Virus record (IMG/VR): IMGVR_UViG_3300021180_000006
Span: 1 to 64,000 of that record
Length of the DNA: 64,000 bases
Origin: a virus
Direction: 5' to 3' (one strand)
Under the pieces are notes generated by a model. It worked only from the letters and a program-made list of their open reading frames with translations, searched no databases and was not told where the DNA came from. Positions within the stretch are counted from its first letter, which is position 1. The number at the start of each line of letters is the position of its first letter. Below are positions 4,158-34,820 of the stretch, piece after piece. The translations under genes were made by a program, and so were the position numbers.

Positions 4158-4829
4158 TCAGGCCCCCGTTTGAACAGATTCGACACCTTCGGCAGGCTCA
4201 GGGCAGGCACGCTCACCGCAGGCAGATTCGCCCCCGGACTGGCCGCCCCAGACGCCCCACATATACCCGAGCCACGGATCGCGCATGACCCCGTCGGCAT
4301 CGATCGGGCCGCCGCAGACACGGGCATCGTTGGCAAGGTATTTCCGATGGCGCGGCGAATTGGATTTCCGGTCGGCCTCAGCCAGCATCCTCAAGCCGTA
4401 ATCGCGGTCCCCGAACCAGCAGACGCCTGGCCGCGGCTTGTGGAAATCGCTCTTGGCGCCGCGCGGCACCTGGAGAAACCCTTCCTCGAAAAGGCTCTTG
4501 AGCTGGGAGCGGTCGATCACCTCATTGAGCGGGTGGGATTCTTCCGTGCCTGACAGGAAATAGTGGTAGCAGTTGACGCAGATCTCTGAGGAGTCTTGGC
4601 GGTACAGCGGGTAGGCCGGCGCCAGGACTCGACAGACCGAGCAGTGGATCATCTTCGTGCTGCCGCCGCCCGGCGGGTAGAGCTTTTGCGAGTGCAGGGA
4701 GCGCTTCGTCGCCTGTCGACCGCCCGGCATCGTCAGCCGGTCATCCCCCTCATCGTCCGTGAAGCAATCGAACAAACCTTCGCGCCAGCTCCACGAGCAG
4801 ACCAGGGCCATGATCCATGTCTTGACCAT
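4158..4829 (-). CDS. hypothetical protein with zinc-finger-like centre and repeat-derived tail (223 aa)
   Basis: Start taken at ATG 4829 because a TATAGAT promoter box lies at 4932-4938; TTG and GTG starts further upstream would sit in the promoter. Central segment IHCSVCRVLAP...EICVNCYHYF has two CxxC pairs about 25 residues apart, a likely zinc site. The last 16 residues include ACPEPAEGVES, which is encoded by a REP-like repeat (4176-4213) and is probably a recent replacement of the original C-terminus. Function unknown. Confidence 0.55.
   Translation of the reverse strand: MVKTWIMALVCSWSWREGLFDCFTDDEGDDRLTMPGGRQATKRSLHSQKLYPPGGGSTKMIHCSVCRVLAPAYPLYRQDSSEICVNCYHYFLSGTEESHPLNEVIDRSQLKSLFEEGFLQVPRGAKSDFHKPRPGVCWFGDRDYGLRMLAEADRKSNSPRHRKYLANDARVCGGPIDADGVMRDPWLGYMWGVWGGQSGGESACGERACPEPAEGVESVQTGA
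4176..4213. repeat. REP-like element (CCTTCGGCAGGCTCAGGGCA type)
   Basis: The segment carries the core that translates as ACPEPAEG on the minus strand. Sequences of this type are widespread short palindromic, intergenic or gene-terminal repeats in environmental bacterial genomes, and some are linked to RAYT transposases. Only one copy is visible in this window. Confidence 0.5.
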
Positions 4830-4931
4830 GGCGCGGTGCCGGCGCTTCTCATCCTCGGTGGCGGTGAGAACGTCTGCCGCGTTTTTGGATTTGGCGCGAC
4901 TTGAAATAGGGGGTCCGTTGAACCCGCAACT

Positions 4932-4938
4932 ATCTATA
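4932..4938 (-). promoter_or_regulatory. -10 box TATAGAT in divergent region
   Basis: Minus-strand GTGTGACTATAGATAG lies about 100 bases upstream of ATG 4829. It resembles the box at 4030-4036. The gap 4830-5003 separates leftward and rightward genes and is the natural place for divergent promoters. Confidence 0.4.
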
Positions 4939-5003
4939 GTCACACGTCTTGGGCGCAATTACGGTGGAAAGTTTCCGCCCTTTTGGCATAAAGTATCCGT
5001 AAG

Positions 5004-5348
5004 GTGTGCGCCCTTTCTGCCTCATCCAAACCCTTAGACCCGGATGACCCGGACGCCGAAGAAACGCCGATCGCCCAACGAGTTTGGTTCTCGTTGTACC
5101 CGCAGCAAATCAAGTTCATCCGAGACCAGGCCCGCGAACATGGCATCAAAAAATCCGAGGCGCTCAGACACCTGTTGCGCGTCGCCAAGGCCAGCGTGAG
5201 GAAGGCAGACGTTCATGCAAACGCCGAGATCATCAGCAACGCGCTGATCCAAATGGGCCATCTGGTTCGGAGCGGAAGCGAACTCGGCGATTTGGTGGCG
5301 CGGATGAAGACGGCCAGCAATGGGATCGGGGACGCGACGGGGAAGTAA
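5004..5348 (+). CDS. ribbon-helix-helix-like / mobilisation-type hypothetical protein (114 aa)
   Basis: GTG start at 5004. Residues about 26-60 (RVWFSLYPQQIKFIRDQA..., KKSEALRHLLRVA) fit a beta-strand followed by two helices, as in RHH DNA-binding proteins and MobC-like proteins. The C-terminal half is helical and may dimerise. It is alone on its strand between leftward genes. The assignment is by pattern only. Confidence 0.55.
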   Translation: MCALSASSKPLDPDDPDAEETPIAQRVWFSLYPQQIKFIRDQAREHGIKKSEALRHLLRVAKASVRKADVHANAEIISNALIQMGHLVRSGSELGDLVARMKTASNGIGDATGK

Positions 5349-5424
5349 ACGATCGACTCAGATGGCGCACCGCCGGATCGGTGTAGTGCAGGGGCTGGCC
5401 GCAATGACAGAGCTGCTCTTTCAC
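5233..5424 (-). CDS. possible truncated zinc-knuckle protein
   Basis: GTG-started leftward frame beginning MKEQLCHCGQPLHYTDP, which looks like a real small metal-knuckle protein. The remaining part overlaps the convergent gene 5004-5348 by over 100 bases and looks non-coding. It may be a gene truncated by loss of its 3' end. Confidence 0.35.
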   Translation of the reverse strand: MKEQLCHCGQPLHYTDPAVRHLSRSFTSPSRPRSHCWPSSSAPPNRRVRFRSEPDGPFGSARC

Positions 5425-5493
5425 TCTTTCACGGCGTCTCTCCCGGCCGGCTGGTGCGCTCGTCGCGGCCGAGCTGCTCGATCTCCTGATCGC

Positions 5494-5781
5494 TCATGGC
5501 CGACATTTCCCGGTCGCATTGCGCTTGGTCGAGCCGCGCCTCGGCCTGCGGATCGAGCGTCTGCGGCTGGACCTGTCCGCGCGGGTCAGCCGGATGGCGC
5601 AGTGGGCGCAGAGGAGGATCGCCTCGCCGGCCGCGACTTTCGCCTTGGCCTTCGGACCGAGCCAGCAGCGGCGCCGGCAGCGCGGGCAGTTCACCCGCTC
5701 ATAGTCGCAACCCGGCGTGTAACCGGGCGCGCCGTCGGGGACGCAGGCGACGATGTTCTGGACGTTATCTAAGCTCGGCAT
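5494..5781 (-). CDS. small zinc-ribbon protein (95 aa)
   Basis: ATG at 5781 overlaps the end of the upstream gene by 17 bases. Motifs VNCPRCRRRCWLG and LLCAHCAIRL supply two CxxC knuckles about 30 residues apart, a classic zinc ribbon, followed by an Arg-rich tail that could contact nucleic acid. Probably a phage accessory protein; role unknown. Confidence 0.65.
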   Translation of the reverse strand: MPSLDNVQNIVACVPDGAPGYTPGCDYERVNCPRCRRRCWLGPKAKAKVAAGEAILLCAHCAIRLTRADRSSRRRSIRRPRRGSTKRNATGKCRP

Positions 5782-8221: not shown

Positions 8222-8956
8222 ATGCAACTCCTCACCGTCCTCAATCAATCCGGCGGCTGCGGCAAGACGACGGCGGCGGTGCATTTGGCCTGCTGGCTGG
8301 CCGAGCGGAATGCCAATGTCGCCTTCATCGACGCCGATCCGCAAGCGCGGAGCACCCACTGGCTCAAACGCGCCGCCCCGGGAATCCTCTGCCTGCCGGC
8401 GATCGAAGCGGGCGAGGTGCACGACGCCGTCGAACGTCTCAAAGCGGGGGATGACCTCACCGTGATCGCCGATGCCAAGCCGGGACTGGACGGGGCGGCG
8501 CTCGAGCTTTTGAAACTGTCCGATCGCGTCTACATGCCCATCGTCCCCAGCGAGATCAATCTCGATTCGACCGCTCAGGCCCTGGCGACGATGAAGGCGC
8601 TGGAGGTGCGCAAGCCGGTGGTGCTGTATCTGTCGATCGTCGATCCCGGCGGGGAAGCCACGCGGGCGCGATTGAGACTGGCGGAATTGGCTCGCGAGTC
8701 GGGGGGGCCCGGCGTCACGGCTGCGGCGGCGTCGATCGGCAGACGGATGGTCTTTCGCGCCGCCTACTCGCACGGAACCGTCGCCTGGCGGATGAAGGCC
8801 GTGTCGTCGTCGTGGTCGAATCCGGCCAAGCTCGCCTGTGCCGAACTGGACGCCCTGTTTACGGAGATCCTGCCCCATGGAATCCTCGCAATCGATCGCC
8901 CCGCCGCCTCTGCCTCTGACCTCCAGGACGCTGACCGCTACCACGTCGCTGCCTGA
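8222..8956 (+). CDS. parA: ParA-type partition ATPase
   Basis: 244 aa from ATG 8222. The N-terminus holds the Walker A motif QSGGCGKTT (residues 9-17) and FIDADPQ a little later, as in ParA/MinD-family ATPases that position plasmid or phage DNA on the nucleoid. The usual signature lysine of the deviant Walker A motif (KGGxxKTT) is replaced by Ser10, so either this is a divergent ParA or ATP-dimer chemistry differs. Size matches small ParA proteins without an N-terminal HTH. The next gene, overlapping by 80 bases, encodes an RHH-like partner, as in ParA-ParG type systems. Confidence 0.85.
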   Translation: MQLLTVLNQSGGCGKTTAAVHLACWLAERNANVAFIDADPQARSTHWLKRAAPGILCLPAIEAGEVHDAVERLKAGDDLTVIADAKPGLDGAALELLKLSDRVYMPIVPSEINLDSTAQALATMKALEVRKPVVLYLSIVDPGGEATRARLRLAELARESGGPGVTAAAASIGRRMVFRAAYSHGTVAWRMKAVSSSWSNPAKLACAELDALFTEILPHGILAIDRPAASASDLQDADRYHVAA

Positions 8957-9326
8957 GAACGTGAGACGGGCGCTGACCCTGCCGCCGACGCCGCAGCTTT
9001 CACAGGCTGCGCAGACGGACACAGATGGGCACAGACAAGCCCGGACTACAGGCGTGTCGTCAACGCGAGCGGATGAACCACAGGCGGGTATTCCGCCGAA
9101 GCGCCGCAAAGACAAGGGCGTGCTGCTCACGCGGGATGAATCGGAAAGACTGCGCACGTTGTCAGTGGACATTCCTGAATCCTTGTACGACTCGCTCACC
9201 GTGGCGGTGGCGGCGGCGCGGTTGCAGAAGCGCAAAGAGCACAACTCCCTGCGCTCGATCGCGGCGGAGGCATTGGGCAAGTGGCTGGAGGAGAACGATC
9301 AGCATGTGTTCAACCGGGGGGATTGA
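8877..9326 (+). CDS. ParG/RHH-like partition partner or repressor (149 aa)
   Basis: ATG 8877 lies within the end of parA. The first 90 residues are Pro/Thr/Gln-rich and probably disordered, and residues about 100-147 (LRTLSVDIPESLYDSLTVAV..., LRSIAAEALGKWLEEN) fit a ribbon-helix-helix fold. A flexible arm plus an RHH domain next to a small ParA is the standard arrangement of centromere-binding ParG-like proteins that also repress the operon. Inference from pattern and context. Confidence 0.7.
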   Translation: MESSQSIAPPPLPLTSRTLTATTSLPENVRRALTLPPTPQLSQAAQTDTDGHRQARTTGVSSTRADEPQAGIPPKRRKDKGVLLTRDESERLRTLSVDIPESLYDSLTVAVAAARLQKRKEHNSLRSIAAEALGKWLEENDQHVFNRGD

Positions 9327-9613
9327 AAAGGCAATGACTTACTTGACTCACCATTGAAATCCACGCCATTCGGAATTTGATGAACAACGTCCTCTCGACG
9401 TGGCCTGGCGTTCGCGTATCGACGGCTTGAGCAGCAAGTCGCGGGGATCGCCGACCCGCCTTTAACCTGTCCGCCAACGTTCCGACTCTCGTAGGAGCTA
9501 CCCGCCGAGTCGCCATTGGTCGAAGGAATGCTGATGCACACTTCATTGCCAAGGTCGAGCGGGGCTAAAGCGTTGCTTCGTTGGTGAGTCAAGTAAGTCA
9601 TTACGATTGAAAA
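9321..9613. mobile_element. 270-bp segment bounded by 21-bp perfect inverted repeats
   Basis: Left end 9333-9353 (AATGACTTACTTGACTCACC and one more base) and right end 9582-9602 are exact reverse complements. The segment is flanked by a direct 9-bp repeat GATTGAAAA at 9321-9329 and 9605-9613, 2-3 bases outside the inverted repeats. No convincing gene is inside. The structure fits a MITE-like non-autonomous element, or an invertible switch, or a partition/replication site; which one cannot be decided here. Confidence 0.6.
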
Positions 9614-9615
9614 CA

Positions 9616-9876
9616 CTAAACCCCGATCTCCGCATCCCGCTTATCCTGTACCCTCCTACACGCCCGCGCCACTTCCAGCGTCTGCCGCGCAATCGGCCAG
9701 TCCTTATTGCCGGGGTGGCGAAGTCTCCTGACCACGCGCACCGCCTCCTCCCATGACGCCTGACAGGCGCTGCACAGATCGGCCGCCACCCAGGAGCACC
9801 CTCCCTCACAGGCGTCGTTCTGCGTACAGCCACAGACACAGCAGCTTGGCTCGTCGGGTTCGGTGCGGCGGGTCAT
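9616..9876 (-). CDS. Cys-rich zinc-binding protein (86 aa)
   Basis: ATG 9876 gives MTRRTEPDEPSCCVCGCTQN followed by DACEGGCSWVAADLCSAC, a dense cysteine motif that recurs in many phage proteins of unknown role. Helical, basic C-terminal half. It ends 3 bases from the flanking repeat of the inverted-repeat segment, so that element may have landed just at its 3' end. Confidence 0.75.
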   Translation of the reverse strand: MTRRTEPDEPSCCVCGCTQNDACEGGCSWVAADLCSACQASWEEAVRVVRRLRHPGNKDWPIARQTLEVARACRRVQDKRDAEIGV

Positions 9877-10227
9877 GGGGCTCCAATCCTTCGCGCATAA
9901 AAGCGCTCTCCTAGTGACGACATTCAATATGTATGGGAATCGAACTTAACCGGACCGCGAAACCGTCCGGCGGCTGAGGTGAGCTGCTGAAACCGATCGG
10001 CATCCTAGCGAGCGGCGGCGGGAGAGCAAACAAAAAATTCGCGAGAGATTTCTGTCCCCGTTTCGCGCCGGCGTCCAAGTTCATCATAGCCAGCGCCCGA
10101 TCCCCGCCTGCCAAGTGACGCGCCGGTCATTCAATGTGTGCAAAATGGACGGTCCTTCACAATTCGTTTGCAATCGCGAAAGCGCGGCGTGTAGCATCGC
10201 GAAGATTGCATTTCAGGGATGTTGCTT
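9877..10227. other. intergenic control region
   Basis: 350 bases without a supportable gene between divergent genes. It contains a hairpin at about 9952-9972 (CCGGAC/GTCCGG arms), a purine-rich stretch, and the promoter at 10168-10197. The minus-strand segment around 9968-9995 would encode QQLTSAAG, also found at the end of the small ORF at 11590-11742, suggesting a decayed copy of that gene. Confidence 0.45.
10168..10197 (+). promoter_or_regulatory. sigma70-like promoter, TTGCAA-N18-TAGCAT
   Basis: TTGCAA at 10168-10173 and TAGCAT at 10192-10197, 18-base spacer, about 30 bases before the preferred ATG at 10228. Shares its -35 with the promoter at 2884. Confidence 0.55.
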
Positions 10228-11742: not shown

Positions 11743-12049
11743 GGCTGACAGGGACAAGGCTGACGGCGACAGGCCAACCGATCGCAAGCGTCTGCCGATC
11801 CGGGAAGCGGCGCGGCTCGTCGGCCGCGATTATCGCTACCTGCGCAAGCTGGCGCTGGAGCTACAGGTCCGGTCCTACCGCCGCGGCGGAACCGCCCGGC
11901 GTCCGTGGCTGGAATTCTACCTGGACGAATTGCGGGCCGATCTGGACAAGGCCGAGCAGTTCAAGCGCGTCGCCGCTTCCGTCCCCCCCCGGAAGCCGCG
12001 GGTTTCTTCGGTTTCTTCGGCTTTGCATCCCGCCGCGGCGGCGATGTGA
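11741..12049 (+). CDS. excisionase-like HTH protein (102 aa)
   Basis: ATG 11741 with GAGGTGA 4-5 bases upstream. Residues about 16-60 (KRLPIREAARLVGRDYRYLR, then WLEFYLDELRADLDK) fit the winged MerR/excisionase type HTH of recombination directionality factors. It is convergent with and overlaps the integrase gene by 89 bases; placement beside an integrase is the strongest argument for a directionality role. Could instead be a repressor. Confidence 0.6.
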   Translation: MADRDKADGDRPTDRKRLPIREAARLVGRDYRYLRKLALELQVRSYRRGGTARRPWLEFYLDELRADLDKAEQFKRVAASVPPRKPRVSSVSSALHPAAAAM

Positions 12050-13385
12050 AGGCCGCCGTCCAGACGGCATCGACCAATTCGCGGAGCCGGTCGAGCCCGA
12101 GGTGTTCGAGATAGTTTTCGACGAGAACGGAATCGTTTTGGTGCCCCATGACAATCTCAACTTCCTCCCGATAACCCGGCGGGGCCAGGTTGGGAAAGGT
12201 CGTGCGCAGCGAGCGGAACCCGCGGCCATCGGCATCGCCGCTGAATTTGATCCGCCGCCGTCTCGATCCCTGCCTCATCGTGTTTTCGATGACGATCGGC
12301 TTCTGTCGCAACCCGGCCCGCTCGCTCAAGCGCCGCCAGCGCTGCGAGAGGGCGTCGATGGCATTGGACAAACCCGGCCGCGCCAAACTTGCCTTGAGCC
12401 GGATCAGCGGCAGCCCGTTGCTGGTCAGAAAAAACAACTCGCCGTTGCTGTTGGTGCCGTCGCCGTTGTCTGCCGCTTGATTGGCATCCGCTCCATTGGC
12501 CCTTTGCGGCCGTTGGTATTTCTTGAGCAGCTTGAGCAGCTCGGGGCGCATGGGGATGACCCGGCGCACCTTCCCCTCTTTGCGGCGCCGGTAGTCGATG
12601 ACGCCGCGCTCCCAGTCGATCAGGTGCGACGAGAAGTTGGCGATGTCGCTGTTGTCCATGGCCCCGTTGATCCCCAGGGCGATCCACAGGCGCTCGGTAT
12701 CGTCCGCGTTTTTCCACAGGGCCTGGATCTCCGCCGGGGTGTAGCTCTTGATGATGCTCAGCCGGCGGTCGCGATGACGCTGCTGGCTGGGGCGCTTGAA
12801 GAACGTCCCGAACTTGGGCACGGTTTCCAGAAGATCGTCCTCGACGCACCAGCGGAAAAAGGCGCGGAGATAGGCGACGTGCCGGGCCAGAACGCAGGGG
12901 GCGCAGCCGATCAGCGTCTTGGCATATTGCGTGAAGTCGCCGGCGCCCATTTCCGCGATAGGTCGGTCGGCGCCGACGCACTTGCCGAAGCGGCTCAGGG
13001 TGCGGATGTAGTCGGCCCGCGTCACCGGGGCCAGCGACCGCGGCGTGCCGTGCTTGACGCGATGATCGAGGTAGTCAAAGAACCGGGCGGCGGCCTGGCG
13101 AAGCGTCGCCGTTCCCAGCGTGGCGATGGCGTCGGCCGAGCGCTCGAGGTTGGCGTCGATCTCTTTGCGGAGCGATTCCCACACGCCTTCGACCTCGTCC
13201 GGCGCCGTCTTGCGTCCACAGACGAAGCGCGTGCGGTCGAGATACCAGCGAACGTAACCGTCCCGCGTGAGAGAGAAGGTCGCGAGCAAACGCTGGCGAA
13301 GCCCGGCGTGCATCGGGGCCGCGTCAAACCAGTCGGGGACGTGCTTGTGGGGAACGGGCTGGTCGGGCCTGGGCATGCCGCCCAT
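11961..13385 (-). CDS. int: tyrosine recombinase / phage integrase (planctomycete-type)
   Basis: 474 aa. N-terminal SAM-like DNA-binding domain (RDGYVRWYLDRTRFVCGR about 40-60, core-binding about 90-190) and C-terminal catalytic domain. Identifiable motifs are GRGFRSLRTTF (box II Arg region), VMGHQND and NYLEH, with the nucleophile at about Tyr425. The first catalytic Arg is not at its usual place: GINGAMDNSDIANF stands where GLRxxEL is normal, and the H of HxLR is Arg. This departure is known from a large recombinase group in planctomycetes. It probably catalyses integration at the tRNA-Phe site whose 3' end lies just upstream (13467-13508). Very basic C-terminal tail. Confidence 0.88.
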   Translation of the reverse strand: MGGMPRPDQPVPHKHVPDWFDAAPMHAGLRQRLLATFSLTRDGYVRWYLDRTRFVCGRKTAPDEVEGVWESLRKEIDANLERSADAIATLGTATLRQAAARFFDYLDHRVKHGTPRSLAPVTRADYIRTLSRFGKCVGADRPIAEMGAGDFTQYAKTLIGCAPCVLARHVAYLRAFFRWCVEDDLLETVPKFGTFFKRPSQQRHRDRRLSIIKSYTPAEIQALWKNADDTERLWIALGINGAMDNSDIANFSSHLIDWERGVIDYRRRKEGKVRRVIPMRPELLKLLKKYQRPQRANGADANQAADNGDGTNSNGELFFLTSNGLPLIRLKASLARPGLSNAIDALSQRWRRLSERAGLRQKPIVIENTMRQGSRRRRIKFSGDADGRGFRSLRTTFPNLAPPGYREEVEIVMGHQNDSVLVENYLEHLGLDRLRELVDAVWTAAFTSPPRRDAKPKKPKKPAASGGGRKRRRA

Positions 13386-16060: not shown

Positions 16061-16348
16061 ATGGTCACGACCTCTTTGAAGCAGCTTACCGACGCCGATC
16101 TGGTCACCAGCCTCGCCAGCGAGGTCTGTCCCGCCTGCGGCTCTCCGAAGTTCAGCCGCAAGACCTTCTGCCTATCGGATTACCGCCGCCTGCCCAAGGC
16201 GATGCGGAATGCGGTCTATCAGAAGCTGGGCCACGGGTATTTCGAGGCGGTGATGGAAGCGATGCAGTATCTGGGCCGGGAGGAGTTCGTCCTGCCCGAT
16301 CCGCGGCGGCCGATGCAACCGCAGGACAAGGAAGTCCATCATGCCTGA
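16061..16348 (+). CDS. zinc-binding phage protein (95 aa)
   Basis: ATG 16061 with GGAG 6 bases upstream. CPACGSPKFSRKTFCLSDYRRLP carries the CxxC...C pattern common to short phage proteins; helical C-terminal half. Overlaps the HNH gene by 8 bases. Confidence 0.7.
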   Translation: MVTTSLKQLTDADLVTSLASEVCPACGSPKFSRKTFCLSDYRRLPKAMRNAVYQKLGHGYFEAVMEAMQYLGREEFVLPDPRRPMQPQDKEVHHA

Positions 16349-16595
16349 TTACAAGGAATATTTGAGCAGCGAAGACTGGGCGGAACTCCGGGCAGAAGCT
16401 ATCGAACGCGCTGGAGGTGAATGCGAGCGATGCGGCTCAACGGAGAATCTTCAAGTTCACCACCGGACCTATCGGCGCTTGGGCCAGGAACGTCTCAGCG
16501 ACCTCGAATGTGTATGCGACGAGTGCCATCGCGAAATTCACGGGGTCGATGACTGCGAAACTGATGACGACGAAACTGATGACGATGACGAATAA
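16341..16595 (+). CDS. HNH endonuclease (84 aa)
   Basis: Compact HNH nuclease: CERCGST (first zinc pair), LQVHHRTYRRLG (catalytic His region), LSDLECVCDECHREIH (second zinc pair and last His). The tail is a run of Asp/Thr/Glu repeats. Small HNH proteins in phages act in DNA packaging, nicking or homing; placement in the early block does not favour packaging. Confidence 0.85.
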   Translation: MPDYKEYLSSEDWAELRAEAIERAGGECERCGSTENLQVHHRTYRRLGQERLSDLECVCDECHREIHGVDDCETDDDETDDDDE

Positions 16596-17775: not shown

Positions 17776-18065
17776 TCCACCCCGACTCCCCAGCCCTGCA
17801 CTACCGCTCCCCGCACTACCCGGCTGTCTTCAACGGCATGGTCCCCTCGAAGATCAGGATGAGACAGACGGTGAGGGTCGATCCCGGATTGCTGCTGGCG
17901 CGGCCGGAGTTGAAGGACACGATCGCCTACTGCGGCGAATTGTACGACGTGTGGGTCAACAGCCATGGGGCGGTTGCGGCGGTGTTGCCCGATGGAGGGC
18001 AGCTTGGGGTGAAGCCGGGGGAATTTGAAGTGGTGGAGTTCTATCGAGGGGAGGCGATCGCTTGA
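17772..18065 (+). CDS. hypothetical protein (97 aa)
   Basis: Coupled by ATGA to both neighbours. N-terminus contains HYRSPHYPAVFNG; the rest is beta-rich and ends GVKPGEFEVVEFYRGEAIA. Placed directly before the DNA methyltransferase. No family recognised. Confidence 0.65.
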   Translation: MIHPDSPALHYRSPHYPAVFNGMVPSKIRMRQTVRVDPGLLLARPELKDTIAYCGELYDVWVNSHGAVAAVLPDGGQLGVKPGEFEVVEFYRGEAIA

Positions 18066-19705
18066 AAAACCTTGAATCCGCGATTCTGACGACGCGCCAC
18101 GGAGCGCAGCTCAACGCCGGCATGTTCGATGAGATGATCGTCGATAATTTCGCGGGCGCGGGCGGGGCTTCCATGGGCATCGAGGCTGCGGTCGGGCGCG
18201 CCGTCGACGTCGCCATCAATCACGACCAGCACTCGATCGCGATGCACCAGATCAACCATCCGAACACGCTGCACCTGTGCGAGGATGTTTGGAACGTCGA
18301 TCCGGTTCAGGCGACGGCCGGCCGGCAAGTCGGACTCGCCTGGTTCAGCCCCGATTGCCGGCATTTTTCCCGGGCCAAGGGAGGCAAGCCGGTCGAGAAA
18401 AAGATTCGCGGATTGGCGTGGGTCGTCATCCGCTGGGCAAGATTGGTGTCGCCCCGGTTGATCGTTCTGGAGAACGTCCGCGAGTTTCAGGAATGGGGTC
18501 CCTTGCGGTCGGACAATACTCCGTGCCCGAAACGCAAGGGCAGCACGTTCAAGAGTTTCGTCACCCGCCTGCGCAATCTCGGATACGTCGTCGAGCACCG
18601 CATTCTGAACGCCGCGGACTTCGGCGCGCCGACGCACCGCCGCCGGCTGTTCCTGATCGCGCGACGCGACGGGGTTCAAATCCAATGGCCCGAGCCGACG
18701 TACGGCCCCGGTCGTAAACATCGCTACCGAACCGCAGCGAGCTGCATCGACTGGTCGCTTCCCTGCCCGAGTATTTTCCTGACTCGCGCCGAAGCCAGAA
18801 TCCTGCGCATCATCCGGCCCCTGGCCGACAAGACCATGCGGCGCATCGCGATGGGCATCAAGCGCTACGTTCTGGATAATCCCAAGCCGTTCATCGTCAC
18901 TTGCAATCACGGCGGCCCGGAATTTCGCGGCCAGTCAGTCGATGATCCGTTCAAGACGGTGACGGGATCGCGGGATGCGCATGGACTTGTGCTGCCCTTC
19001 CTCGCCGCCAATTACGGCGAAGCGCCTCACCAGGAGACCCGTGGCCAGAAGGTTGACGAGCCGCTGCGAACCGTCACGCCATCGAACAACGCGGGTGTCC
19101 TGATCGCGCCCACCGTCATCCAATACGCTGCGAAACCCCGACCGATTGACGAGCCGGCCGGCGTCGTGATGACGGAGAATCACCAGGCGCTCGCTACGGC
19201 GTTTATCGCCAAGCATTACGGCGGAGTCGTCGGCCATGCCCCGGATCGCCCCATCGGCACTATCACGGCCGTCGATCATCACAGCGTCGTCGCTTCGCAT
19301 TTGACAAAGTTCTACGGGACCAACGTCGGCGCGGATGTGCGCGAGCCAATGCCTACGGTGACGGCGGACGGAAACCACGTTGGCGAGGTCCGTGCGTTCC
19401 TTATCAAATACTTCGGCTGCGGTTGTGGGCAACAATGCGTTGAACCACTTCACACGGTCACGGGGCGCGACCGCTTCGGGCTGGTGACGATCGACGGCCA
19501 GGATTTCCAGATCATCGACATCGGCTTGCGCATGCTCAATCCCCACGAGTTGCTCCGCGCCCAGTTTGGAAAATATGCCGAAGGCTACATCCTTCTCGGC
19601 ACCAAAGCGCAACAGGTCGCGCGAATCGGCAACAGCGTGCCACCTGAACTGGCCGAGGCCGTCGTTCGCGCCAACTACTGCGCCGAAATCGAGGTCGCAG
19701 CATGA
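18062..19705 (+). CDS. DNA (cytosine-5) methyltransferase with repeat-containing recognition region
   Basis: 547 aa. Motif I DNFAGAGGASMGIE (about 28-41, SAM site), motif IV SPDCRHFS with catalytic Cys99 (SPDC instead of the usual PPCQ), motif VI ENVREF, motif VIII GAPTHRRRLFLIA and motif X ARIGNSVPPELAEA at the C-terminus. Between motifs VIII and X, residues about 285-480 consist of five divergent copies of a ~40-residue unit containing PxxTVT or PxxTIT plus DxHGLV-like text, where the target recognition domain belongs. SPDC(K/R)HFS enzymes form a phage subgroup. Probably protects phage DNA from host restriction; no cognate endonuclease is adjacent. Confidence 0.92.
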   Translation: MKNLESAILTTRHGAQLNAGMFDEMIVDNFAGAGGASMGIEAAVGRAVDVAINHDQHSIAMHQINHPNTLHLCEDVWNVDPVQATAGRQVGLAWFSPDCRHFSRAKGGKPVEKKIRGLAWVVIRWARLVSPRLIVLENVREFQEWGPLRSDNTPCPKRKGSTFKSFVTRLRNLGYVVEHRILNAADFGAPTHRRRLFLIARRDGVQIQWPEPTYGPGRKHRYRTAASCIDWSLPCPSIFLTRAEARILRIIRPLADKTMRRIAMGIKRYVLDNPKPFIVTCNHGGPEFRGQSVDDPFKTVTGSRDAHGLVLPFLAANYGEAPHQETRGQKVDEPLRTVTPSNNAGVLIAPTVIQYAAKPRPIDEPAGVVMTENHQALATAFIAKHYGGVVGHAPDRPIGTITAVDHHSVVASHLTKFYGTNVGADVREPMPTVTADGNHVGEVRAFLIKYFGCGCGQQCVEPLHTVTGRDRFGLVTIDGQDFQIIDIGLRMLNPHELLRAQFGKYAEGYILLGTKAQQVARIGNSVPPELAEAVVRANYCAEIEVAA

Positions 19706-32280: not shown

Positions 32281-33549
32281 TCAGGCTGTGGGCTCGGCCA
32301 CCAGAAACGTCCCCCGCTCGATCCACGAATAACCCTCCCCCAGGGCCGTCTGGAGTTGTTCCAGGGTCGGCCAGTCGCCGGCATCGTGATGCACGTGGAA
32401 CTTGCGTCCCTCCCAGCGCTCAGGGAAGTAAATATCGGAGTTGGTCACGATCACCCGCGCCCCCGTTTCGCGCAGGGCGGCCAGCTCCTCCAGCACCGGA
32501 CAGGCCGGCAAGCCGTTCTGAGCCCGGTCGAAATTGGCGTCCAGCAGCACCGTCAGCGCCGTCGGACCCATCGGCGACCCCTCCGGCCCCCGCGGAAAGA
32601 GAAACTTGCGGCTGTCTTGAGACAGGATCACCGCCGCGACGCCAAAAATATTCGCGGCCTCTTGGGCGAGCTTGCCGTCCTGCTCGATCCCTATGACCTC
32701 TTTGAATCCCGCCAGCAATGCCGTCTTGAGGTTGCGCCCTTTGCCGCAGCCGGTTTCGATGAAGGTGTCGGCCAGGAGGGATGAAAGCTCGCGGTCGAAG
32801 CGCAGGCGCGCATCTACACTGCGCCATTTGCCCCCTTTGGACCAGTCGATTTCCGCCCAGCCGTCCTCGCCCTCGAACAGCGGGATGCCTACATCGCGGG
32901 CGAACTGCGCCGCCGATTTGCGGTTGTGCAGCGAGATGGGATGCTTGCGGTGCGTCTCCCACCAGGCCGGGCCGTGATCCTCGTGGTAGACCAGGCGGCG
33001 TGAGATGCCGCCGCGATCGGGGGCGTGACTGTCGCGCTCGATCAGCTTGGTCAGACAGGCGTCGAAGGCTTCGGCGGCGATCAGGAAATCCGGCACCTCG
33101 CGATGGACTCTGCGCCACCAGTGCGGCCGGAAGGCGATCAAGTCCGTGCCTGCGGTCGGATCGTCGAAAGCGAACACATAGGACGGGGGGACGTTGCTGG
33201 CGTCGACGACGTTGATCCGCCCGGAATAACAGGCGTCGTTCTTGCCCTCCGCCATCGTCTGGCGCACCGCTTCGTAGGCGTCGGGAACCAGGCAGGCGTC
33301 GCAGTTGGTCCAGACAACGATCGTTTCCTCGGGTTCGCCCCAGCAGCCATAATCGAAGATGTCTTTCAGGTAGGGAACGCGGCGGGCATCGTCGCCGAAG
33401 GCGCGCCGTGGCGCGATCGGCTTGAGCGTCACCCGTTCTTCGTTGCCCCAGGTCTTGACCGCGTTGTCGTTGCGGCGCCGCTCATCGTCGCTCTTGGGGG
33501 AGTGCTCATGGAAGATGTGAACGATTCGTTCCACGGCTATTCGTTCCAT
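32281..33549 (-). CDS. glycosyltransferase-like + SAM methyltransferase fusion (422 aa)
   Basis: ATG 33549. The first half (RIVHIFHEHSPKSDDERRRN, ETIVVWTNCDACLVPDAYEA, TDLIAFRPHWWRRVHREVPD, RRLVYHEDHGPAWW) looks like a GT-A type sugar transferase with an acidic TNCDACL motif at the nucleotide-sugar position. The second half (about 270-422: FIETGCGKGRNLKTALLAGF, VIGIEQDGKLAQEA, LTVLLDAN, RVIVTNSDIYFP) has the glycine-rich SAM site and downstream strands of a class I methyltransferase. A two-activity enzyme that adds and caps a sugar is a reasonable inference. Last gene of the late block. Confidence 0.65.
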   Translation of the reverse strand: MERIAVERIVHIFHEHSPKSDDERRRNDNAVKTWGNEERVTLKPIAPRRAFGDDARRVPYLKDIFDYGCWGEPEETIVVWTNCDACLVPDAYEAVRQTMAEGKNDACYSGRINVVDASNVPPSYVFAFDDPTAGTDLIAFRPHWWRRVHREVPDFLIAAEAFDACLTKLIERDSHAPDRGGISRRLVYHEDHGPAWWETHRKHPISLHNRKSAAQFARDVGIPLFEGEDGWAEIDWSKGGKWRSVDARLRFDRELSSLLADTFIETGCGKGRNLKTALLAGFKEVIGIEQDGKLAQEAANIFGVAAVILSQDSRKFLFPRGPEGSPMGPTALTVLLDANFDRAQNGLPACPVLEELAALRETGARVIVTNSDIYFPERWEGRKFHVHHDAGDWPTLEQLQTALGEGYSWIERGTFLVAEPTA

Positions 33550-34820
33550 ACATCGACCCCGTACTGCTGGCGCAACAACTCGATCGCCCGCTCGCCGTGG
33601 AAGCCGAAGGTCAGCCGGCGATCCTCCGGCCAGGGGTGCGGCGGCGGCTGATGACACTCGAAGCTGAACCGCGCCGCCACCGTCACCGGGGCAAAGCGAA
33701 TTCCCGCCGCCTCCATCGTGGTACGGCAGAACACGCAACTGAACCAGTCCTCGCAGTGCTCAGCCGGCGGGACCGGCGTGTCGGGATGCTCCATGCGCCC
33801 GTAGCCGAGTTTCGCTGTCTCCTGAAGGAACCTGCGGCTGCGCAGGGAGAAGCCGCCGTTACCGACGATCCATTGATCCTGCCAGTGCCACGGACTGCCG
33901 ACGTAATCGTAGTCGAGGAACGCCCGGCTCCAGGTCGAGGGATTCCGCGCGAAGCCGTCGCTCTGCACGATCAGGCAGTGCGGCGCGTCGATGAAGCGGT
34001 GCAGCTCCTCGAGAACGAAGCGGGAATAGTCGTAGACGCTGGCGAACGGCTCGATCTTCACATAGGCGGCATCGACGGGCAGCGCCTTCGGGCGCCGCGG
34101 GGCAAGGAACATCACCTTATCGACCTGGCAGTGCCGCAGGGTGCGATTGACCGCGGCGCAGCCCTGCTCGGGATGATTGGTGTCGATGCAAACCAGCGTG
34201 ACCCCGCTCAGGTCGGCCTTGGGGCTGTCCCATCCGCCGGGCCGCAGTTCATCGGGATCGCGCAGGATTCCCGCCGGCCGCTCGCCCAAATCGACCCCCA
34301 GCGTCAAGAGGGCGCGGCGCAGGCTGGAATAGTCGTAGATGATCTGCTCGTAGGTGAGCAGGAGCCAGGGTAGGGGAGGAGGGGGAGAAGGGGAGAGGGG
34401 ACGAGGGGAGGATGGGGACTCGACAAATTCGCTGATTCGGCGCAGGGCCGAGGCGAGGTTGGCCAGTCCCTCCGATTTGTCCTGAACGTACTGGCGGCGC
34501 AACTGCGACTGCACCGTCGATTCGCCTGACCGCAGAAGCACCAATAGCGCGACGGCGTATCCCGCCGCTTCCAGCTCGCCACGCAGCACGGGTAAATCCG
34601 GCCAGCCGCGCTGGTCGCCCACGCCGTAGGGCAGGCTGCGCTTAACGACGATCTGCCGGCCCATCTCCGAGAGCGGAACATCATGGCGCGGGTCGCCGGT
34701 GTTCCACGACTGCCAGCCAGCCGCTTCCAGGAGACGGTTCAAGAGCGTCGAGCCGCTGCCCTCGGGACAGACGATCAGCAGTGCCCGTTTAGTTGCGCCC
34801 GCAAAATGTTCTGTATCCAT
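33537..34820 (-). CDS. sulfotransferase-like + DUF5672 (sugar-transferase-like) fusion (427 aa)
   Basis: N-terminal part LLIVCPEGSGSTLLNRLLEA resembles the PAPS-binding P-loop of sulfotransferases, with RSGESTVQSQLRRQYV after it. Middle: an in-frame G-rich repeat gives SPSSPRPLSPSPPPPLP, a Pro/Ser linker. The C-terminal part (LVCIDTNHPEQGCAAVNRTL, DAPHCLIVQSDGFARNPSTW, YDYVGSPWHWQDQWIVGNGG, FSLRSRRFLQETAK) matches DUF5672, a glycosyltransferase-like domain common in capsule and phage loci. It overlaps both neighbours slightly. Probably forms or modifies surface glycans. Confidence 0.7.
   Translation of the reverse strand: MDTEHFAGATKRALLIVCPEGSGSTLLNRLLEAAGWQSWNTGDPRHDVPLSEMGRQIVVKRSLPYGVGDQRGWPDLPVLRGELEAAGYAVALLVLLRSGESTVQSQLRRQYVQDKSEGLANLASALRRISEFVESPSSPRPLSPSPPPPLPWLLLTYEQIIYDYSSLRRALLTLGVDLGERPAGILRDPDELRPGGWDSPKADLSGVTLVCIDTNHPEQGCAAVNRTLRHCQVDKVMFLAPRRPKALPVDAAYVKIEPFASVYDYSRFVLEELHRFIDAPHCLIVQSDGFARNPSTWSRAFLDYDYVGSPWHWQDQWIVGNGGFSLRSRRFLQETAKLGYGRMEHPDTPVPPAEHCEDWFSCVFCRTTMEAAGIRFAPVTVAARFSFECHQPPPHPWPEDRRLTFGFHGERAIELLRQQYGVDVWNE

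Follow-up and report, generated by a model that had tools for sequence, protein, structure and literature searches.

A short segment bounded by inverted repeats follows a predicted partition operon in the 64,000-nt stretch of virus DNA analysed here (the window), raising the question of whether it is a transposon remnant or a functional site of the virus. The earlier note had described it as a 270-bp segment with 21-bp perfect inverted repeats and 9-bp flanking direct repeats, which could be a MITE, an invertible control segment or the centromere/replication site. Our analysis leaves little doubt that the segment is a transposase-less MITE of the IS1595 type inserted between two virus genes.

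The boundaries of the element differ slightly from those first proposed. It measures 276 bp (9330-9605), with the ends GGCAATGACTTACTTGACTCACC...GGTGAGTCAAGTAAGTCATTACG: the left inverted repeat lies at 9330-9352 on the plus strand and the right one at 9583-9605 on the minus strand, where the plus strand reads GGTGAGTCAAGTAAGTCATTACG. The perfect 21-bp complementarity is confirmed (arms 9333-9353 and 9582-9602), and no other inverted pair of at least 18 bp with arms within 600 bp occurs in the window. Allowing up to three mismatches, the end motif is found in only two places in the window, namely at both ends of the element, and its mean count in 100 dinucleotide shuffles was 0.00; the inverted repeats are thus far beyond chance. 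The right end has the outer tip ACG, as opposed to the GCC usual in the family. Each 23-bp end is directly abutted by a copy of ATTGAAAA on the plus strand (9322-9329 and 9606-9613; an exact 8/8 match), and the target-site duplication is therefore 8 bp long. The 9-bp repeat GATTGAAAA is indeed present, but its ninth base is a chance match, because the right-hand G, G9605, closes the element and the left G belongs to the flank. The frame MTYLTH, noted as starting in each inverted repeat, is a mere translation of the conserved end.

The length of the duplication recurs among elements with similar ends in other genomes. A perfect 8-bp duplication flanks 9 of 16 inward-facing end pairs (the window element, L067, L053, L054, L072, L073, L061 and two in L071, one nested in the other), and perfect duplications of 4-7 or 9-12 bp flank none of the 16. 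Matches were seen in 2 of 8699 trials with displaced flanks, and 51 of the 72 bases in the nine perfect duplications are A or T. The remaining seven pairs are imperfect, matching at seven of eight positions in L026, five in L052, four in L065, three each in L020 and L069, two in L071 (8979-10588) and none in L053 (482-2204). Some of these may represent decayed or recombined ends, and others may be wrongly paired. Up to seven end mismatches were accepted in the first pairing and up to six in the second, for which a second consensus was added. We excluded nested or overlapping pairs (L071 5419-8463, 6936-8947 and 6936-10588; L053/L068 2247-6627; L061 1156-5861; L069 473-3254) as well as duplicate views (L068 of L053, and L061 1156-3557 of L020). 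No pair could be formed for ends that lack a partner in reach (L055, L056 at a contig end, L057, L058, L059, L062, L063, L064, which is another view of the L054 left end, L066 and L070). Passages of the IS1595 literature describe 8-bp target-site duplications and a single transposase gene for this family, with an N-terminal zinc finger in transposases outside the IS1016 group (PMC8101967), and the excerpted reports on ISApl4 (PMC12561309) and ISEc69/Tn7052 (PMC7835479) likewise give AT-rich duplications of 8 bp.

An exact 20-mer of the end occurs in one other IMG/VR stretch and in four stretches among 84,980 bacterial and archaeal species genomes. Three of the four genome stretches carry a left end identical to that of the window element at 23 of 23 positions: L025 and L027 (the latter also seen as L056), which are separate contigs in a single Actinomycetota MAG, and L028 from a Nocardioidaceae MAG. 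In the fourth, L026 from an Anaerolineales MAG, both ends are present and bound a 130-bp element, whose right end agrees with that of the window element over 26 nt, including the odd ACG tip; its flanks are ATGCAATG and ATGGAATG. The window element and L026 are separate insertions with the same asymmetric ends, which would point to one MITE lineage. The exact 23-mer of the right end was absent from viral_contigs. Scanning with a 17-mer of the end core returned 21 stretches, among which only L004, L006, L020 and L024 have ends of the element type, and broader scans for ends added further virus contigs. In 16 virus contigs (L005, L007-L016, L018, L019 and L021-L023), the 17-mer lies within one conserved gene-like stretch with a shared long flank; this stretch has nothing to do with the element and is probably a widespread gene that matches the 17-mer by chance. 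The match in L017 is likewise unrelated.

The earlier note had suggested searching for an autonomous transposase with the same ends, and such partners do exist. In L020, a gene at 4580-5527 between two such ends matches PF12762 (1.7e-41), PF12760 (2.3e-9) and the IS1595 model NF033547 (4.7e-57); its own end pair has no duplication. Transposases between ends with perfect duplications are found in L061 (3818-5861) and L072 (2408-4138), which share 80 and 73% identity, respectively, with the L020 protein in tblastn and represent complete partners, and L056 combines a left end with a transposase. L073 contains a partial transposase match inside a cleanly flanked element. An alignment of the L020, L053, L072 and L061 transposases (73-80% identity to L020) revealed that all four keep DET, YTD or YSD, and NGMENFW, together with the zinc-ribbon cysteines; the presumed DDE residues were assigned on the basis of the ISApl4 catalytic motif in the excerpted report (PMC12561309). 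In the Actinomycetota MAG G005, a left end identical at 23 of 23 positions (C443:33057-33079) is followed by a PF12762 match at 33503-33931, with no right end found before the contig end. Overall, an IS1595 transposase is present in four of the eight records searched, and none was found in the 86.8-kb record to which the window belongs.

Taken with the 8-bp duplication of the family, the match of the ends to those of elements with IS1595 transposases strongly supports the MITE interpretation. The window element has 21-bp inverted repeats within 23-bp ends, an abutting 8/8 duplication, and neither a transposase nor a recognisable ORF, and an autonomous partner exists in other records. It resembles IS1595 elements in its ends starting with GG, its AT-rich 8-bp duplication and the near identity of its ends to those of elements encoding PF12760 and PF12762. 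In contrast to the family, it lacks the ISXO2-like, zinc-ribbon DDE_Tnp_IS1595 transposase of its relatives, has the ACG right tip and encloses a 228-bp interior with no relatives in the collections searched. MITEs are a well-known kind of DNA parasite, to which the window element adds another member. Passages of one account of prokaryotic MITEs trace them to IS families, with the borders alone in common with the autonomous partner (PMC3852290). The window element agrees with that account in its size below 500 bp, the absence of a recognisable gene, IS-like inverted repeats, target duplication and conservation limited to the borders; MITEs are often multi-copy there, whereas the window element occurs once in its record.

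We propose that the transposase of an IS1595 element, resident in the host bacterium or on a co-infecting element, would have recognised both ends of a transposase-less copy. This copy would have inserted into the AT-rich octamer, with gap repair leaving the 8-bp repeats, and would have parted a 149-aa gene from a convergent 103-aa ORF without breaking either; without a matching transposase, the element would be inert.

Upstream of the element lies a gene for a ParA-like partition ATPase (8222-8956, plus strand; NCBIfam ParA_partition, E 3e-28, below its cut-off; phrog_164), followed by the 149-aa gene (8877-9326, plus strand). The RHH label of the second gene is the earlier note's own, and the 149-aa protein had no match in Pfam, NCBIfam or PHROGs. 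Its stop codon (TGA, 9324-9326) lies within the target octamer, so that the duplication recreated the stop and left the gene intact. The convergent ORF (9616-9927, minus strand) has its stop end at 9616 and is untouched. With the octamer restored and this ORF unharmed, the insertion was probably neutral, with a transcriptional effect being possible. Relatives did not yield an empty site: in viral_contigs, neither the 103-aa ORF nor ParA has relatives, and among phages the 149-aa protein has none and the 103-aa ORF only weak partial hits in three records. Elsewhere in the window are genes for a DNA methyltransferase (18062-19702; phrog_116), an integrase (11964-13385; phrog_1) and an HNH endonuclease (16344-16592; phrog_119), which together with parA would suggest a temperate or plasmid-like phage.

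The integrase, encoded on the minus strand, and the perfect inverted repeats flanking the segment are what an invertible control segment would call for, in which a site-specific recombinase acts at the 21-bp repeats. However, the same repeats border many unrelated interiors and have 8-bp duplications outside them, inversion does not come with target duplications, and we detected neither a promoter-like site within the element nor a recognisable gene whose orientation would matter. We therefore regard inversion as very improbable. A role as centromere (parS) or replication site for the adjoining operon, suggested by the position directly after parA and the RHH-like gene, is equally improbable: the segment is a discrete insert bracketed by a target duplication, elements of unrelated interior have the same ends, and centromere-type direct repeats were looked for in 8900-10100 and not found. 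The element instead inserted secondarily, at the point where the second gene has its stop codon, although the partition protein may have come to use it later. Least credible of all is a structured non-coding RNA gene closed by the 21-bp helix, which we dropped since the whole segment is more stably folded than its shuffles (z -4.63 and -6.15) but the interior alone is not (0.76 and -0.55), tracing the excess to the terminal helix, and since Rfam gave no match in 9000-10000 up to E 5 and a promoter-like site is lacking. What appeared to be a regulatory or centromere feature is thereby settled as an ordinary transposon remnant.

The MITE's interior (9354-9581, 228 bp) is non-coding by the tests made, in keeping with the description of the segment as gene-free. 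Its longest frame, on the minus strand with 90 codons inside the element, has a GC3 of 0.58, below the 0.81 and 0.75 of the neighbouring genes. Profile searches of the 105-aa frame against Pfam, NCBIfam and PHROGs gave no match, and a coding reading was dropped on these grounds. Neither promoter-like nor terminator-like sites were found inside the element. A blastn search with 9300-9640 against phages and plasmids returned no match, and the interior is single-copy in the 86.8-kb record, with no second copy in anything searched. The earlier note had held that a unique, never inverted segment conserved as part of a longer gene in relatives would speak against its proposals; this applies only in part, since the interior is unique in everything searched but the ends recur elsewhere, and our searches yielded no relative in which the gene is uninterrupted. 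Because the interior is known in a single copy only, we infer the mobility of the element from its ends and duplication alone. The interior may be a decayed passenger or captured DNA.

Several relatives with the same type of ends carry recognisable cargo, and they are of more interest than the window element itself. Three have perfect 8-bp duplications and no full transposase: a 425-bp element with a 117-aa ORF without family; a 508-bp element with IS1595-type ends (L053 6120-6627, G004:C1), nearly filled by a 156-aa Dam-like methyltransferase ORF (PF05869, 2.8e-6, just under the cut-off; phrog_111, 2e-16); and a 1063-bp element in which a transposase is reduced to its last 24 codons. In L071 (5419-8947), a 1528-bp element with the perfect duplication ATCGGCTC, likewise lacking a full transposase, interrupts the transposase gene of a 3529-bp element with the duplication CAAATGAA; the transposase match of the latter is accordingly split in two by the nested element, and the larger element also holds a PAPS-reductase-like gene (phrog_424). 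A 1427-bp element in L052 (1084-2510, G001:C1), the pair with the 5/8 duplication, has IS1595-type ends around a gene for a TnpB-family RNA-guided nuclease (401 aa; NF040570, 3.4e-75), with no IS1595 transposase in its record. A cytosine methyltransferase gene lies in a 1610-bp element without a duplication.

These relatives tentatively raise the idea, which we consider possible but rather doubtful, that the window element is a near-empty member of a pool of transposase-less, IS1595-ended cassettes that circulate in phages, pick up phage genes and are mobilised in trans. Mobile insertion cassettes appear to follow the same logic as the cargo-carrying relatives, whereas the window element differs from them in having no recognisable cargo gene. 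If the cassette idea were true, IS1595 transposases would move methyltransferase and nuclease genes between phages. In any case, the end motif and the partner transposases provide a means of finding such elements in uncultivated viruses.

Two minor observations, both made by eye, concern the ends of related elements. At the right ends of L072 and L073, TATATT or TATGAT comes 17 bp after the TTGACT in the end motif, which may thus contribute the -35 box to a promoter that faces inward; the window element shows no such pattern. In two virus contigs, small ORFs adjoin the IS1595-type ends (L006 near 2105; L020 6215-6625) and have in common a stretch like KFDxLMxKLVxVPP, possibly reflecting a recurrent passenger gene.
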